From IMG/VR virus record IMGVR_UViG_3300009008_000216, positions 1 through 26,149 of that record: a DNA stretch of 26,149 nucleotides, one strand, 5' to 3'. Below, piece after piece: positions 12,699 to 20,334 of this stretch; within the stretch, counting starts at the first letter, position 1, and each line of letters starts with the position of its first letter. The notes under the pieces were generated by a model, which saw nothing but the letters and a program-made list of their open reading frames with translations, made no database searches and was not told the origin of the DNA. This DNA comes from a virus. A program made the position numbers and the translations under genes.

Positions 12699-12703
12699 AT
12701 CGC

Positions 12704-12732
12704 TTGACTTTTGTATAAGTATAGTGTATAAT
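12704..12732 (+). promoter_or_regulatory. Strong sigma70-type promoter driving the non-coding region
   Basis: TTGACT (12704-12709), a 17-base spacer and TATAAT (12727-12732). It begins 6 bases after the preceding stop codon. No gene begins for nearly 600 bases downstream, and gene 55 has its own promoter, so its evident product is the structured RNA starting near 12739. A TATAAATA late-type octamer also occurs at 12750-12757, with a non-standard flank. Confidence 0.85.
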
Positions 12733-12792
12733 ATATTGAAAATTACACATATAAATACAAATTCTGCCTAGAACGTGAAAACTAGGATAGTA

Positions 12793-12806
12793 GCGAAAGT
12801 GAAGTG
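12793..12806 (+). repeat. Repeat copy 1: GCGAAAGTGAAGTG
   Basis: This string recurs at 13087-13099 as ACGAAGTGAAGTG, one base shorter. Both copies lie in the non-coding RNA, the second in a hairpin loop. Its core CGAAGTG is complementary to the CACTTCG in the hairpin at 13193-13199. Confidence 0.55.
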
Positions 12807-13044
12807 AGCAGACTATAATATCTTAAACGTAATTAGATTGAGGTCTGTAATTTGATGCCAACGTGTAATGGCTAAATAATTAAAATAATCGTGTCAGGAC
12901 TCTCACCACATAATGGTATCATATAGTCCAGTAGAGATGGGTGAATTGACATTCAGTGGCAAATAGGAATCCGTAACCTATCTCTAGGGATTATAGTGTG
13001 TATAGAAGTTAACTTCAAGATACTAGAAGAAAATATAGATTAAG

Positions 13045-13239
13045 AAAATGAAGACGGTCTTGCGAAGCAAGACCCGAAAACACGTAACGAAGTGAAGTGT
13101 TTTCGATTGGTGTAGTCGATGTAATTTTAAACTACATTAAGCTACTCCAGTGACCTGAAGTGTATCAAATGGTTCTTCAATCTACATATGGACACTTCGT
13201 GCCCATATGTGGGTTACTTCGTAACCCTGTCTTCATTTT
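13045..13239 (+). other. Closed multibranch hairpin domain at the 3' end of the RNA
   Basis: AAAATGAAGAC (13045-13055) is exactly complementary to GTCTTCATTTT (13229-13239). Inside are: 8 bp 13056-13063/13067-13074 with GAA triloop (core GCGAAGC); 9 bp CGAAAACAC/GTGTTTTCG (13075-83/13097-105); a weaker TGTAGT/ACTACA (13111-16/13131-36); TGAAG/CTTCA (13156-60/13175-79); 8 bp ACATATGG/CCATATGT plus CAC/GTG (13184-13210) with TTC loop; and 7 bp GGGTTAC/GTAACCC (13211-13227) with TTC loop. The last two hairpins abut and could stack. Confidence 0.75.
13087..13099 (+). repeat. Repeat copy 2: ACGAAGTGAAGTG
   Basis: Second copy of the motif at 12793-12806. Bases 13087-13094 (ACGAAGTG) are mainly in the loop of the CGAAAACAC/GTGTTTTCG hairpin and are perfectly complementary to CACTTCGT at 13193-13200, allowing a loop-loop contact. 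Confidence 0.55.
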
Positions 13240-13259
13240 ATTTAATTCTAGTTACTTGC

Positions 13260-13288
13260 TAGACATATAGTCATTTCTATGTTATAAT
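13260..13288 (+). promoter_or_regulatory. Extended -10 promoter of gene 55
   Basis: TAGACA (13260-13265, five of six to TTGACA), a 17-base spacer and TATAAT (13283-13288) preceded by TGT. The predicted start is near 13295, giving a ~30-base leader with AAAGGA before the GTG start codon. Confidence 0.8.
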
Positions 13289-13323
13289 TAATCTATTAAA
13301 ACTACATTAATAAAGGATATACA

Positions 13324-16719: not shown

Positions 16720-16747
16720 TCGACAAGGGGGCGAATTAGTGTATAAT
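16720..16747 (+). promoter_or_regulatory. Sigma70-type promoter of the CobT-like gene
   Basis: TCGACA (16720-16725), a 16-base spacer and TATAAT (16742-16747). The -35 sits inside a small CCCT/AGGG inverted repeat. The promoter merges into the 25-base leader shared with the CobS-like gene. Confidence 0.75.
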
Positions 16748-16763
16748 GATCAGTGTTGGTTCG
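16739..16763 (+). repeat. Promoter-leader direct repeat, copy 1
   Basis: A 25-base block that begins GTGTATAATGATCAG and ends TGTTGGTTCG is identical to 19082-19106. It covers the -10 box and the first bases of the transcript, and contains the palindrome TGATCA just after the -10. AAAGGAGAAAT and the ATG follow within 16 bases. Confidence 0.85.
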
Positions 16764-16778
16764 GATTAAAGGAGAAAT

Positions 16779-19022
16779 ATGACAAATAAAGTAAATATTG
16801 AAGCGAAAAACACTCTTGCTCGTCTAATGGCGACAGAGAACATTACGGTTCAACACAAAAAGGTACAAACTGCCTCTTTTGATGTTAAGAACCGTGTCTT
16901 GAATCTTCCAATTTGGGAAGATATGTCAAACGTATTATATGAAGGGTTGATTGGACACGAAGTTGGTCACGCTCTTTACACACCATTTGAAGAATGGAAA
17001 GAATTCGTTAAAGAAAACCCAAACCTTAAAGATTATGCTAACGTCATTGAGGACGCTCGAATTGAACGTCTTATGAAAGTGAAATATGCAGGTATGAATA
17101 AAACATTCTTTGGGATGTATGATGAATTAAATATGAAGGATTTCTTTGGACTCCGTGGACGTGATATGGATGAATTTGGTATCCTTGATCGTATTAACCT
17201 ACGTTTTAAGTTGGGTTCACGTGCCGAAGTTACTTTTACTGAGGAAGAAGCCCGTATTGTTGATAAAGTTGCTTCTACTAAAACCTTCCAAGATGTGTTG
17301 GATTTAACACTTGAACTTGCTGAATATGCCAAAAATGAGGAACTAAACACTGACTTTGATAATATGGAGTTTTCTGACAGTGATGAAGACTTTGACATTG
17401 ATGATTTTGAGGAAAGTGATGGTGGTTCTAATGCTTCTCCACGTCCTTCACCTAAAGATAATAATGAAGATGGTGAAGGTGGTGCCGGTGATGAAGAAGA
17501 TGAAGACGGTGAAGATGGTGAAGATGGTAAAAGTGGTTCAGGTAATGACAGTGATGAAGACGGTGAAGATGGTAATGGTGATGGTAGTGGAAAAACTGAC
17601 CAACCACCTGCTTCAGAAACACAAAAAAACTTTGATGACCGTTTGGGTGAAATGAATGATGAAAATGCTTCAAACCCAATCTATGTTGATTTGCCTAACA
17701 TTGATTTAAAAAACACTGTTATTGGTTATAAAAATGTTGGGAGTGTTTTGAATGAGTTTTATGGACGTTCAGTTAATTATGACTATTGGGGTGACAACGG
17801 TGAAATCTTTAAAAAGAAAACCGACGATCAAATTGTTGCTTGGAAAAAGGATACTTTGCCTGTTGTAAATTATATGGTTAAAGAATTTGAAATGAAACAG
17901 GCCGCTACTGCCCATCGTCGCACTTCTGTTGGTAAGACTGGTGTTCTTGATACTAACAAAATGCACGCCTACAAATATGAAGAGGATATTTTCAAAAGGG
18001 TTGCTACTGTAAAAGATGGTAGAAACCACGCTTTGGTTATGTACGTTGATTGGTCGGGTTCAATGGCAGACAAAATATTAGGTACTGTAAAACAAACAAT
18101 TACCTTGGCGATGTTTGCACGAAAAGTTGGTATTCCGTTCCGTGTTTATGCTTTCACTAACTCTAGTGGTATTGGTGATTATAAGCCAAATAAAACACGT
18201 TTTTACCAAACTGAAGACAACGGTAATTTTGCTTTTGATCACCTAGAGTTGGGACGTATGACTTTGGTTGAGTTTTTCAATGAAAAGATGAATGCACGTG
18301 AGTTTAATGATGGAATTATTAACTTCTATAAACTTGGTCTTTCTGTTAGTTATTCAAGATATGATTCAATTCAAACACCTATTGGTTTTGGACTTGCTTC
18401 GACACCATTAAACGAGTGTATTATTGCTTCATATGAACAAGTTGAAAATTTCAAACGTGAATGTGGAAAAGAAAAGGTTAATGTTATTTTCCTAACTGAT
18501 GGTGATTCTGATGGAAATGATAGATACTACAGTGTTGATGAAACGTGTACTAAATATCCAACTAGATGGGGTGAAGGAAGATCACACCTTGCAATCCGTG
18601 ACCCAAAAACAAAGAAAATTGTTTCTGCTGTTACTGATGAATATAATAGGAATGGTATGACACAATCGTTACTAACTGCATTGGGTGAACGTTGTAAGGT
18701 TAATGTGATTGGTTTCTTTTTGACTGATAAACGTACTATTAAATATGCAATTGAGCGTAATTTTAAATGGGAAGAGGGTGCCGTTGTTAAGAAAAAACTA
18801 ACCAAAAATGGTTATGTTTCTATGGCTTCTGAAGGTTATGATAAATACTTTATGGTTAATGATAGAGTTATGGATAAAGAAGTTGAAATGCCTGATGAAG
18901 TTGCTCGTAAAGATGATGGTTCTGTTAATAAAGGAAAATTGAGAACTGCATTTAAAAAGTTTTCAAAAGGACGTAAGGTTAACAAGATGTTGTTGAATGA
19001 ATTTGTTCAAATGGTTGCCTAA
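16779..19022 (+). CDS. cobT: CobT-like protein: HExxH metallopeptidase-like plus von Willebrand A domain
   Basis: 747 aa. T4-like marine phages carry this next to a CobS-like ATPase and it is often labelled cobaltochelatase CobT. Visible parts: an N-terminal domain with HEVGH (60-64) and NVIEDARIER (88-97), a zinc-metallopeptidase-like pair; a very acidic Asp/Glu/Gly linker (about 185-280); and a C-terminal VWA domain with the MIDAS start DWSGSM (D424-M429) and FLTDGDSDGN further on. A MoxR ATPase plus VWA protein suggests a remodelling machine rather than B12 synthesis, and no other cobalamin gene is present. It has its own promoter and AAAGGAGAAA site. Substrate unknown. Confidence 0.85.
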   Translation: MTNKVNIEAKNTLARLMATENITVQHKKVQTASFDVKNRVLNLPIWEDMSNVLYEGLIGHEVGHALYTPFEEWKEFVKENPNLKDYANVIEDARIERLMKVKYAGMNKTFFGMYDELNMKDFFGLRGRDMDEFGILDRINLRFKLGSRAEVTFTEEEARIVDKVASTKTFQDVLDLTLELAEYAKNEELNTDFDNMEFSDSDEDFDIDDFEESDGGSNASPRPSPKDNNEDGEGGAGDEEDEDGEDGEDGKSGSGNDSDEDGEDGNGDGSGKTDQPPASETQKNFDDRLGEMNDENASNPIYVDLPNIDLKNTVIGYKNVGSVLNEFYGRSVNYDYWGDNGEIFKKKTDDQIVAWKKDTLPVVNYMVKEFEMKQAATAHRRTSVGKTGVLDTNKMHAYKYEEDIFKRVATVKDGRNHALVMYVDWSGSMADKILGTVKQTITLAMFARKVGIPFRVYAFTNSSGIGDYKPNKTRFYQTEDNGNFAFDHLELGRMTLVEFFNEKMNAREFNDGIINFYKLGLSVSYSRYDSIQTPIGFGLASTPLNECIIASYEQVENFKRECGKEKVNVIFLTDGDSDGNDRYYSVDETCTKYPTRWGEGRSHLAIRDPKTKKIVSAVTDEYNRNGMTQSLLTALGERCKVNVIGFFLTDKRTIKYAIERNFKWEEGAVVKKKLTKNGYVSMASEGYDKYFMVNDRVMDKEVEMPDEVARKDDGSVNKGKLRTAFKKFSKGRKVNKMLLNEFVQMVA

Positions 19023-19062
19023 TAACCATTTGAATAATGTGGAAATAAATGTGAAAAAATGC

Positions 19063-19090
19063 TGGACATGATACTAAATTCGTGTATAAT
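19063..19090 (+). promoter_or_regulatory. Sigma70-type promoter of the CobS-like gene
   Basis: TGGACA (19063-19068), a 16-base spacer and TATAAT (19085-19090), with the same spacing as the promoter at 16720. After the shared leader, GTTGG (19098-19102) can pair with CCAAC (19115-19119) ahead of the AAAGGAG site. Confidence 0.78.
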
Positions 19091-19106
19091 GATCAGTGTT
19101 GGTTCG
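19082..19106 (+). repeat. Promoter-leader direct repeat, copy 2
   Basis: Identical over 25 bases to 16739-16763. The two copies diverge immediately on both sides, so identity is confined to the -10, the TGATCA palindrome and the first part of the transcript. Confidence 0.85.
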
Positions 19107-19143
19107 AGGAAGTTCCAACTAATTAAATAAAAAAGGAGTAAAT

Positions 19144-20334
19144 ATGAGTAAAATTGTTAATATTAATGACTTTGGTGCCGCTGCTGAAGAGTTGTTCGGT
19201 ACTACTGAGATTACGAAAGGACAAGCCAAGGTTATTAAATCGACCTATGATGTTTGTGTTCCACAAGTAGTTTTTGATGGTTCAACTAACCGTGTTGCCC
19301 GTGGTGTTTATAAAATTCCAACCACTGGTGCTGGTATTGCCCCACCTAAAGTTGTTCAAGAGGTTGCAAAGACTGTTGTTAATGAAACCGTTGCTGAGAA
19401 AAAAGTTGGTACGACTGGTGCGATGGAACTTGATGCGTCAATTAGTTTTATCCCTAAAGTTGATAAGACATATGTTTCTTGGGGTAATGCGAATGACATT
19501 AAGAAAATTATTAAATCTAAATTGTTTTTTCCTGTTTACCTGACTGGTATGTCTGGAAACGGTAAAACGTTTGGAATTGAACAAACTTGTGCGTCACTTG
19601 GACGTGAAATGATTCGAGTGAACTTTACTGCTGAAACGGATGAAGATGATTTGTTTGGTGGTTTCCGACTTGTGAATGGTGAAACTGTGTTCCAATACGG
19701 GCCAGTTGTTGAAGCAATGAAACGTGGTGCTGTTCTTTTGCTTGACGAAATTGACCTTGCGTCTTCTAAAGTTATGGCACTTCAATCAGTCCTTGAAGGA
19801 AAGGGTTATTTTATTAAGAAACGTGGTGAGTGGGTTGAGCCCGCTGATGGTTTCACGGTGATTGCTACTGCGAATACTAAAGGTAAAGGTTCTGATGATG
19901 GACGTTTTGTTGGTACTAACGTTCTGAATGAAGCATTCCTTGACCGTTTTTCAATTACTTTATACCAGGCATACCCTTCCGAAGCAATTGAGAAAAAGAT
20001 TCTTACCAAAGCCGCTGAAGGATTTGGGTTGCGTTCTGCCGAAGTTGATGCGTTTATTCCGAACCTTACAATGTGGGGCGACATTATTCGTAAGACTTTT
20101 GAAGACGGTGGTGTTGATGAAATTATTTCAACTCGCCGACTGGTTGATATTCTAAAGTCTTATTCAATCTTCGGAAATAAAGAAAAAGCAATTAAGATGT
20201 CTATTGAACGTTTTGATGACGAAACTAAAGAATCATTCCTTTCTCTTTATGAAAAGATTGATGCTGGTGTTGGTACGAGTGAGTATGGTACTGAAACTAC
20301 GTTTGAGGATGTTGAAGATTACAAAACTGCTTAA
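19144..20334 (+). CDS. cobS: CobS-like MoxR-family AAA+ ATPase
   Basis: 396 aa. The N-terminal ~110 residues are variable, then an AAA+ core: Walker A GMSGNGKT (135-142), a MoxR-type insert with NFTAETDEDDLFGGFRLVNG (160-179), Walker B VLLLDEID (197-204), sensor ATANT (241-245) and the arginine finger region AFLDRFS (R269). MoxR/CobS ATPases act with VWA partners, and the CobT-like gene just upstream is such a partner. They are separately transcribed from near-identical promoters. Cobaltochelatase activity is only the family label; a phage-specific remodelling role is inferred. Confidence 0.9.
   Translation: MSKIVNINDFGAAAEELFGTTEITKGQAKVIKSTYDVCVPQVVFDGSTNRVARGVYKIPTTGAGIAPPKVVQEVAKTVVNETVAEKKVGTTGAMELDASISFIPKVDKTYVSWGNANDIKKIIKSKLFFPVYLTGMSGNGKTFGIEQTCASLGREMIRVNFTAETDEDDLFGGFRLVNGETVFQYGPVVEAMKRGAVLLLDEIDLASSKVMALQSVLEGKGYFIKKRGEWVEPADGFTVIATANTKGKGSDDGRFVGTNVLNEAFLDRFSITLYQAYPSEAIEKKILTKAAEGFGLRSAEVDAFIPNLTMWGDIIRKTFEDGGVDEIISTRRLVDILKSYSIFGNKEKAIKMSIERFDDETKESFLSLYEKIDAGVGTSEYGTETTFEDVEDYKTA

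Follow-up and report, generated by a model that had tools for sequence, protein, structure and literature searches.

The marine, T4-like virus represented by the 26,149-nucleotide stretch of DNA analysed here (the window) carries two neighbouring genes on the + strand that encode a VWA protein with a metallopeptidase-like N-terminal domain and a MoxR-type AAA+ ATPase. We tentatively read this pair, with slightly less than even confidence, as an ATP-powered remodeller and protease for DNA replication-recombination complexes, its activity and substrate being presumed. In marine virus ecology, cobS is regarded as a vitamin-B12 auxiliary metabolic gene and a cyanophage marker (PMC9983427), and its partner has been named a peptidase or a mis-annotated CobT (PMC8651126). 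If our reading is correct, two core genes of abundant ocean phages, found also on resistance plasmids such as IncC, would make up a DNA-metabolism machine, not a vitamin enzyme, and an origin of CobT from a protease-like ancestor would become testable.

Architecture of the gene pair

The pair comprises the following features, all on the + strand of the window:

16720..16763, +: sigma70-type promoter (TCGACA-16-TATAAT) and leader of the VWA gene, holding the 25-bp GTGTATAATGATCAGTGTTGGTTCG at 16739-16763
16779..19022, +: metallopeptidase-like and VWA protein ('CobT-like', PHROG 459 'peptidase'), 747 aa (PHROG 459, alignment, models)
16779..17351, +: predicted zincin-fold N-domain, residues 1-191 (model, PDB fold matches, projannalysin profile match)
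16956..16970, +: HEVGH, residues 60-64, with putative Zn ligands H60 and H64 and putative general base E61 (invariant in 36/36)
17040..17066, +: NVIEDARIE, residues 88-96, with E91 as putative third ligand on the glutamate helix (N88, E91, D92, R94 and I95 invariant)
17346..17603, +: acidic disordered low-complexity linker, residues about 190-275 (pLDDT below 50 at 190-273)
17868..19019, +: CobT_C-like helix and VWA domain with MIDAS (MIDAS invariance; MDN1/Rea1 and NorD folds)
19063..19106, +: sigma70-type promoter (TGGACA-16-TATAAT) and leader of the AAA+ gene, with the second exact 25-bp leader copy at 19082-19106
19144..20334, +: CobS/MoxR-type AAA+ ATPase (PHROG 249), 396 aa (PF07728, PHROG 249, solved relatives)

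The VWA protein matches PHROG 459 'peptidase' over its full length (residues 5-747, E 4.7e-201) and the AAA+ protein matches PHROG 249 'porphyrin biosynthesis' (E 3.5e-111). At least 80% of the VWA protein is covered in 456 phage records, with identities among the phage matches below 60%. Pfam and NCBIfam gave no usable match for it, and phmmer of the whole protein against the PDB returned only low-complexity nanobody matches. The initial annotation suggested that a cobaltochelatase label may conceal another function; the label does appear functionally misleading, but public phage records attach the cobaltochelatase or porphyrin name mainly to the AAA+ neighbour and mostly call the VWA protein 'peptidase'.

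The MIDAS of the VWA domain is complete (D424-W-S426-G-S428, T542, D574) and invariant in 36/36 homologues, and the closest folds of the domain are the MDN1/Rea1 MIDAS (Z 17.4) and the NorD VWA (Z 16.4). The neighbouring protein is an ATPase of the AAA_5/MoxR type (PF07728, E 6.5e-21) with the Walker A motif GMSGNGKT and the Walker B motif VLLLDE, and its solved relatives are midasin, CobS, NorQ and CbbQ. In all 48 viral loci with at least 3.5 kb of downstream sequence, the AAA+ gene is the next gene after the VWA gene. By Walker motifs, full MIDAS and gene adjacency, the two proteins are a MoxR AAA+/VWA pair, and the acidic linker, MIDAS-containing VWA domain and MoxR-type neighbour described in the initial annotation are all confirmed.

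Also real are the two motifs from which a metallopeptidase was originally proposed. An alignment of 36 homologues, a T4-like set with identities down to 32-36% and a mean column identity of 38%, shows no substitution at H60, E61, H64, N88, E91, D92, R94 or I95, so that HExxH is conserved throughout this phage family. HExxH arises in 0.64% of composition-preserving shuffles of the protein, which makes a chance occurrence unlikely, and is absent from every other gene in the window. Distant bacterial relatives, whose retrieval did not rely on HExxH as a pattern, keep it as well. Since NxxEDARI was part of the pattern that retrieved loci L094-L101, its conservation there is partly selected; its presence in L105, L107, L108, L145, L147 and L148, which were reached by other routes, is independent evidence.

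The N-domain was modelled with high confidence (pLDDT 92.4, pTM 0.89), with HEVGH in a helix at residues 51-67 and E91 in a helix at 81-102. Among PDB folds it is matched best by zincins, with jannalysin (4jix) on top at Z 7.0, a modest value given that the tool cautions that Z below 8 may reflect a common arrangement, and followed by ArdC, selecase and abylysin and then BlaR1, SPRTN, IrrE and Wss1; Foldseek E-values were above 0.05. The top hit of an independent sequence profile was projannalysin (E 0.013), in an alignment that pairs the HExxH motifs. CobT is missing from the fold matches despite existing structures, which is uninformative because the fold library ends in April 2026. With an HExxH helix, a downstream glutamate helix and a zincin fold of modest Z, the modelled domain is a putative gluzincin, and the predicted helices are arranged as in solved gluzincins. 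A DNA-protein-crosslink protease of the SPRTN/Wss1 type was considered and rejected: a His would be expected as third ligand soon after HExxH, none follows HEVGHALYTP, and the conserved candidate is E91. The DNA-related zincins among the fold matches (SPRTN, Wss1, IrrE, ArdC) were likewise discarded as functional evidence because zincins generally look alike and minigluzincins score at least as high.

In the wider family the motif is not universal. The Nickie-like phage ZY21 has SEISK in place of HExxH and lacks NxxED while the pair is still present, a Pseudomonas plasmid homologue has HEILCH, and the homologues of phage ICP2 and of the IncHI1 plasmid have partly altered motifs, so that some family members must do without catalysis. 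In the window protein, the metallopeptidase assignment is backed by the predicted zincin fold, with the three anticipated ligands on adjacent helices, but it does not extend to all of its wider relatives.

Relation to cobaltochelatase CobT and CobS

Compared directly, the profiles of the T4-like set and CobT match weakly (prob 19, 43 columns), and a bridge set was therefore used. The T4-like set matches the bridge set (prob 99.9, E 1.4e-32), the bridge set matches CobT (prob 99.8, E 1.2e-29), and one bridge-set member exceeds the Pfam CobT cut-off. These sequence profiles indicate that the VWA protein is homologous to CobT over the protein length by way of the bridge set.

The active-site signatures differ, CobT having HDxxxH...EQARVE (signature HDxxxH...E(Q/T)xR) and the VWA protein HExxH...EDARIE; in the CobT N-domain (PDB 21vu, 9uka) the conserved positions are H82, D83, H87 and E105. 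HExxH was found in none of 26 aligned and 23 additionally scanned genuine CobT sequences, which answers the comparison with bacterial CobT suggested in the initial annotation; six HExxH-type proteins turned up in the same scan. The labels 'peptidase' and 'CobT' are each half right: by descent the protein belongs with CobT, yet it keeps an active-site signature seen in none of the genuine CobT sequences examined. We infer that CobT lost the HExxH site, rather than that the others gained it.

None of the CobT models (PF06213, PF11775, TIGR01651) matches the VWA protein above cut-off, and the AAA+ protein scores 70.8 bits against the CobS equivalog TIGR01650, whose cut-off is 558.6. CobN (PF02514) is absent from all 13 pair-carrying records searched, of which two are bacterial assemblies (Nonlabens, Chloroflexi) and the phage contigs are fragments. 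The control of this search recovered a CobN/ChlH-type subunit in cyanobacterial hosts.

Promoters and genomic neighbourhood

Both genes of the pair are preceded by TTGACA-like/TATAAT promoters, not T4-late ones, and share an exact 25-bp leader, GTGTATAATGATCAGTGTTGGTTCG, that occurs in the window only at 16739 and 19082 and in none of 100 shuffles. The T4-late motif TATAAATA is instead found at several structural genes of the window (2315, 4508, 7560, 9974). TATAAT also precedes gp45 and gp55.

In T4-like loci the gene order is gp47-gp46-[pair]-gp45-gp44-gp62, and in RHEph10, SSU5, ZY21 and ICP2 the pair lies beside ligase, primase, helicase or polymerase genes. The IncC plasmid order is AAA+-ssb-bet-exo-DUF3150-[VWA], and other plasmids also hold the pair among replication or recombination genes. 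Bacterial counterparts include a Pseudovibrio locus with RecT-YqaJ-DUF3150 and Desulfallas/Pelotomaculum loci with RecT-AAA+-[VWA]-PDDEXK, whereas the bacterial loci L095, L096, L098 and L099 have no recombination neighbour. Relatives occur in elements of E. coli, Klebsiella and Salmonella. In a controlled comparison, all 4 HExxH loci had recombination markers and none of 11 CobT loci had any of those tested (Fisher p 7e-4), although the neighbourhood argument is confounded by the frequency of SSB, RecT and toprim genes on mobile elements and by the general clustering of phage replication genes. No paper linking cobS with the SXT recombination genes turned up in a literature search. Together, neighbourhoods and promoters favour a role in DNA replication or recombination over the virion target raised in the initial annotation, which we do not uphold.

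Proposed function, alternatives and known systems

In the mechanism that we propose, a hexameric MoxR/CobS-type AAA+ ring and its VWA partner would form a single machine, the partner probably docking on the ring through its MIDAS VWA domain and carrying the gluzincin-type metallopeptidase domain on its flexible acidic tether. ATP-driven motion of the ring, relayed by the VWA domain, would pull on or remodel a client protein complex, while the tethered zincin domain would bind the client and, if it holds metal and is proteolytic, probably cleave part of it. The client would most likely belong to the DNA replication or recombination apparatus of the element itself or of its host; a protein that obstructs DNA ends or forks would be one candidate. 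A broader and more doubtful generalisation, which we consider possible, is that an AAA+/VWA-metallopeptidase family of T4-like and other phages, conjugative plasmids and other mobile elements serves DNA replication and recombination, perhaps by removing proteins from DNA ends or forks, that bacterial CobST derived from this family when the zincin site was lost, and that the 'cobST' label should be dropped. If true, marine phage 'cobST' would no longer count among cobalamin auxiliary metabolic genes.

The zincin-like domain might instead serve a MoxR-VWA chaperone solely to bind clients, stabilised by metal and performing no proteolysis. CobT lacks HExxH, the motif is missing or changed in a few phage and plasmid members that retained the pair, and target specificity has been ascribed to the NorD N-domain (PMC9976466); we nevertheless regard this as rather unlikely for the window protein, as H60, E61, H64 and E91 never vary among the T4-like homologues and an invariant catalytic-type E61 would be unnecessary for merely holding a metal. 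A protease acting in host takeover, on host proteins outside DNA metabolism such as RNA polymerase or defence factors, would agree with the early/middle-type promoters and with the targets often proposed for phage metallopeptidases (PMC7824862). PADLOC matched neither protein to a defence family, and the pair is a conserved part of the core of T4-like marine phages and is not patchy, with its several hundred phage records, which makes host takeover improbable.

Virion assembly, with the ring and its metallopeptidase-vWA partner assembling and processing structural proteins, has been proposed for a pair of the same architecture in group 2.2 jumbo phages (Iyer et al. 2021, PMC7824862), and that article also cites a MoxR-vWA pair required for tail assembly in an archaeal virus. 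We judge this reading unlikely here: several structural genes of the window carry T4-late motifs and the pair does not, T4-like, ICP2, SSU5-like and Nickie-like phages have the pair inside their replication cluster, and the same family is found on conjugative plasmids, which form no virion. T4-like phages, moreover, have a separate and known prohead protease of the T4 gp21 type. The pair could also be a cobaltochelatase auxiliary, viral CobST recruiting host CobN and raising the supply of cobalamin, as Liu et al. reportedly proposed in 2021. True homology to CobT and CobS and the CobN/ChlH-type subunit of cyanobacterial hosts speak for it; the unmatched CobT models, the low CobS score, the replaced CobT signature and, less firmly, the lack of CobN in the 13 pair-carrying records, phage fragments included, speak against it. 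Relatives also occur in elements of E. coli, which is not known to make the corrin ring, and we find this explanation very unlikely too.

Compared with known systems, our preferred reading of a replication-recombination machine concerns an architecture that is not new, as a metallopeptidase-vWA protein with an adjoining MoxR AAA+ was published in 2021 for jumbo phages. The description there, as far as the accessible text goes, has the N-terminal metallopeptidase fused to vWA, is confined to group 2.2 and makes no mention of CobT homology, plasmid relatives or a replication/recombination context (PMC7824862). The aerobic cobaltochelatase CobT/CobS (PDB 9uka) shares the order of N-domain, acidic linker, CobT_C-like helix and VWA and the CobS-type AAA+ partner, whereas the window pair falls far under the equivalog cut-offs and lies in another genomic context. 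In NorQ/NorD, CbbQ/CbbO and Rea1/midasin, too, a MoxR-class AAA+ is combined with a VWA protein that has a MIDAS, and the window VWA domain matches the folds of NorD and Rea1 at Z 16-17. These systems act on NO reductase, Rubisco and pre-60S particles, respectively, but no zincin N-domain is reported for them in the literature examined. The minigluzincins jannalysin, abylysin and selecase provide the closest solved fold to the N-domain, with HExxH aligned, but unlike the window protein they are stand-alone, of about 100 aa and without a VWA or AAA+ partner. The IncC-plasmid VWA protein (L105) shares HEAAH...NVLEDCRIE, MIDAS and the AAA+ partner, and differs in its ssb-bet-exo cluster with DUF3150 and in a sequence distant from the T4-like set. 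The window proteins are members of PHROG 459 and PHROG 249 of T4-like cyanophages and differ from them only in divergence.

Fold and partnership of the two genes

The window is a piece of a T4-like marine phage, in which terminase, tail, portal, prohead and capsid genes are followed by UvsW, gp55, gp47, gp46, the pair, gp45, gp44 and gp62 (structural-gene and UvsW names were assigned by translation and position). IMG/VR also holds a longer, 90 kb record of the same virus (L001). The pair consists of:

16779-19022, VWA gene, assigned over its full length to PHROG 459 'peptidase' (E 4.7e-201)
19144-20334, AAA+ gene, PHROG 249 'porphyrin biosynthesis' (E 3.5e-111)

Relatives of the VWA protein are encoded in at least 462 phage records, almost all from marine cyanophages and mostly labelled 'peptidase', and the pairing is strict, with the AAA+ gene downstream of the VWA gene in 48 of 48 viral loci. 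T4-like replication clusters also occur under two bacterial genome entries, a Nonlabens xiamenensis contig (L087, 188 kb) and a Chloroflexi MAG contig (L084, 161 kb), which are probably co-assembled or mis-binned phage genomes.

The full-length model of the VWA protein comprises an N-domain, an acidic disordered linker, a long helix and the VWA domain. In fold, the latter comes closest to two MIDAS domains, that of MDN1/Rea1 (Z 17.4) and that of NorD (Z 16.4), both of the type by which VWA proteins dock on MoxR-class rings. Modelled alone (pLDDT 92.4, pTM 0.89), the N-domain places HExxH on one helix (51-67) and E91 on a later one (81-102), and its best matches among solved structures are zincins, with minigluzincins and ArdC first (Z about 7); independently, its sequence profile ranked projannalysin first, with HExxH aligned (E 0.013). 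As a Z of about 7 is modest, the zincin assignment rests on fold, motif and the agreement of these two routes. We are nearly certain that the window genes form a zincin-fold/VWA/MoxR pair, and the zincin-like domain is probably catalytically active.

Motif conservation and relation to CobT

The motifs recognized in the initial annotation, HEVGH (60-64), NVIEDARIE (88-96) and the MIDAS residues, were borne out, being present and invariant across 36 aligned T4-like homologues at identities down to 32-36%. The expectation that HExxH is conserved in phage homologues thus holds within the T4-like family, but only partly in the wider family: the Nickie-like phage ZY21 has SEISK at this position and lacks NxxED, and ICP2 keeps HECYH without the downstream Glu. 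Of two plasmid-encoded proteins, the one from an IncHI1 plasmid retains HEAGH but differs in the downstream motif, and the one from a Pseudomonas plasmid reads HEILCH. The AAA+ gene still adjoins despite lost or altered HExxH in Pseudomonas phage ZY21 (L194:6983-9067) and at a plasmid locus (L143:7897-9630), whose homologues are natural candidates for inactive members. In a Moellerella plasmid (L139:8827-10623), the annotated start of the VWA gene (9274) is too late, and a HEAAH domain is encoded in-frame upstream.

Liu et al. 2021 described cyanophage CobT as 'mistakenly annotated as a peptidase' (PMC8651126). Relatives in bacteria, on IncC plasmids and in other phages were aligned as a bridge set (A5) that is homologous both to the T4-like proteins (prob 99.9, E 1.4e-32) and to genuine CobT (prob 99.8, E 1.2e-29), and the set's Pseudovibrio protein (L094) scores above the Pfam CobT cut-off in a genome that also encodes a genuine CobT (L102). 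The 26 genuine CobT aligned mostly show H-D-x-x-x-H in place of HExxH, with the inter-histidine spacing one residue longer, and the next helix retains Glu and Arg. A scan of 299 genomes found HExxH in none of 23 CobT, and ED-x-R-x-E in all six HExxH-type proteins among the loci kept. Given this homology and the differing N-domain motif, the labels 'peptidase' and 'CobT' are each half right. Loss of the HExxH site in CobT would be the simpler direction of change. Genuine CobT (e.g. L102:1459-3345) conserve HDxxxH and Glu (H82, D83, H87, E105) where the phage protein has its zincin ligands, and this altered site might still bind metal. A cobalt-chelatase role of the phage pair itself is unlikely, though conceivable in cyanobacterial hosts: a search for CobN in 13 pair-bearing records, including two bacterial assemblies, came up empty, and the window proteins failed the CobS and CobT model tests.

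Matched promoters and a candidate structured RNA

An identical 25-bp leader with a sigma70-type promoter precedes both genes of the pair (16739-16763 and 19082-19106) and is the window's only exact repeat of at least 20 bp, besides one within the acidic-linker coding sequence. Other phages carry matched leaders of other sequences, 50 bp long in L013 (5920/8211), 47 bp in L093 (4013/6582) and 31 bp in L072-L074 (L074 at 5895/8253). Identity inside one phage and divergence from phage to phage suggest that the two promoters are under concerted evolution, as if homogenised. Unlike the pair, several window structural genes have the T4 late motif TATAAATA immediately in front of them, an observation that is only suggestive, as the motif was found 7 times against 4.2 expected.

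An ORF-free stretch (12699-13323) upstream of gp55, the late sigma factor gene, contains a candidate conserved structured RNA (12763-12986) that is common to 12 T4-like phages at about 70-80% identity. Compensatory changes affect 23 of its 50 predicted pairs, its folding z is -5.4, and it has no match in Rfam 15, even at E 1.

Genomic neighbourhood and proposed role

The pair lies between gp47-gp46 and gp45-gp44-gp62 in T4-like phages, after UvsX and primase/helicase in Stenotrophomonas phage DLP6, between endonuclease subunits and clamp in Ochrobactrum phage OC, between ligase and Pol III alpha in RHEph10, SSU5 and ZY21, and before primase, helicase and polymerase in ICP2. In IncC and other plasmids, the VWA gene is found beside AAA+ and DUF3150 genes, in most cases with SSB, RecT/Bet, exonuclease or toprim close by, while the Pseudovibrio, Desulfallas and Pelotomaculum loci contain RecT and a YqaJ or PDDEXK nuclease. 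SSB/RecT/Exo/toprim occurred within a 19-kb stretch at all four new HExxH loci vs. none of 11 CobT loci (home-made profiles; p 7e-4), a comparison confounded by mobile-element background, and four bacterial loci had no neighbours of this type. The initial annotation had envisaged a metallopeptidase-VWA protein and its MoxR ATPase, possibly acting on virion or host complexes; the pair itself is supported, and its neighbourhoods point to DNA replication/recombination, to which we tentatively assign its client.

In the versions examined on plasmids and ICEs (L094:3710-4822; plasmid loci L105 and L138-L144), both partner genes adjoin one for a DUF3150 protein; such a protein was not recognised in the phages and is a possible third component.

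In the open-licence papers covered, we found no prior statement of CobT homology with a differing N-domain motif, nor of the plasmid relatives, the replication/recombination context or the matched promoters. The metallopeptidase-vWA and MoxR architecture is already known, since Iyer et al. 2021 described, for group 2.2 jumbo phages, a MoxR AAA+ accompanied by a vWA cochaperone that bears a metallopeptidase at its N-terminus, and proposed that the two serve virion assembly (PMC7824862).
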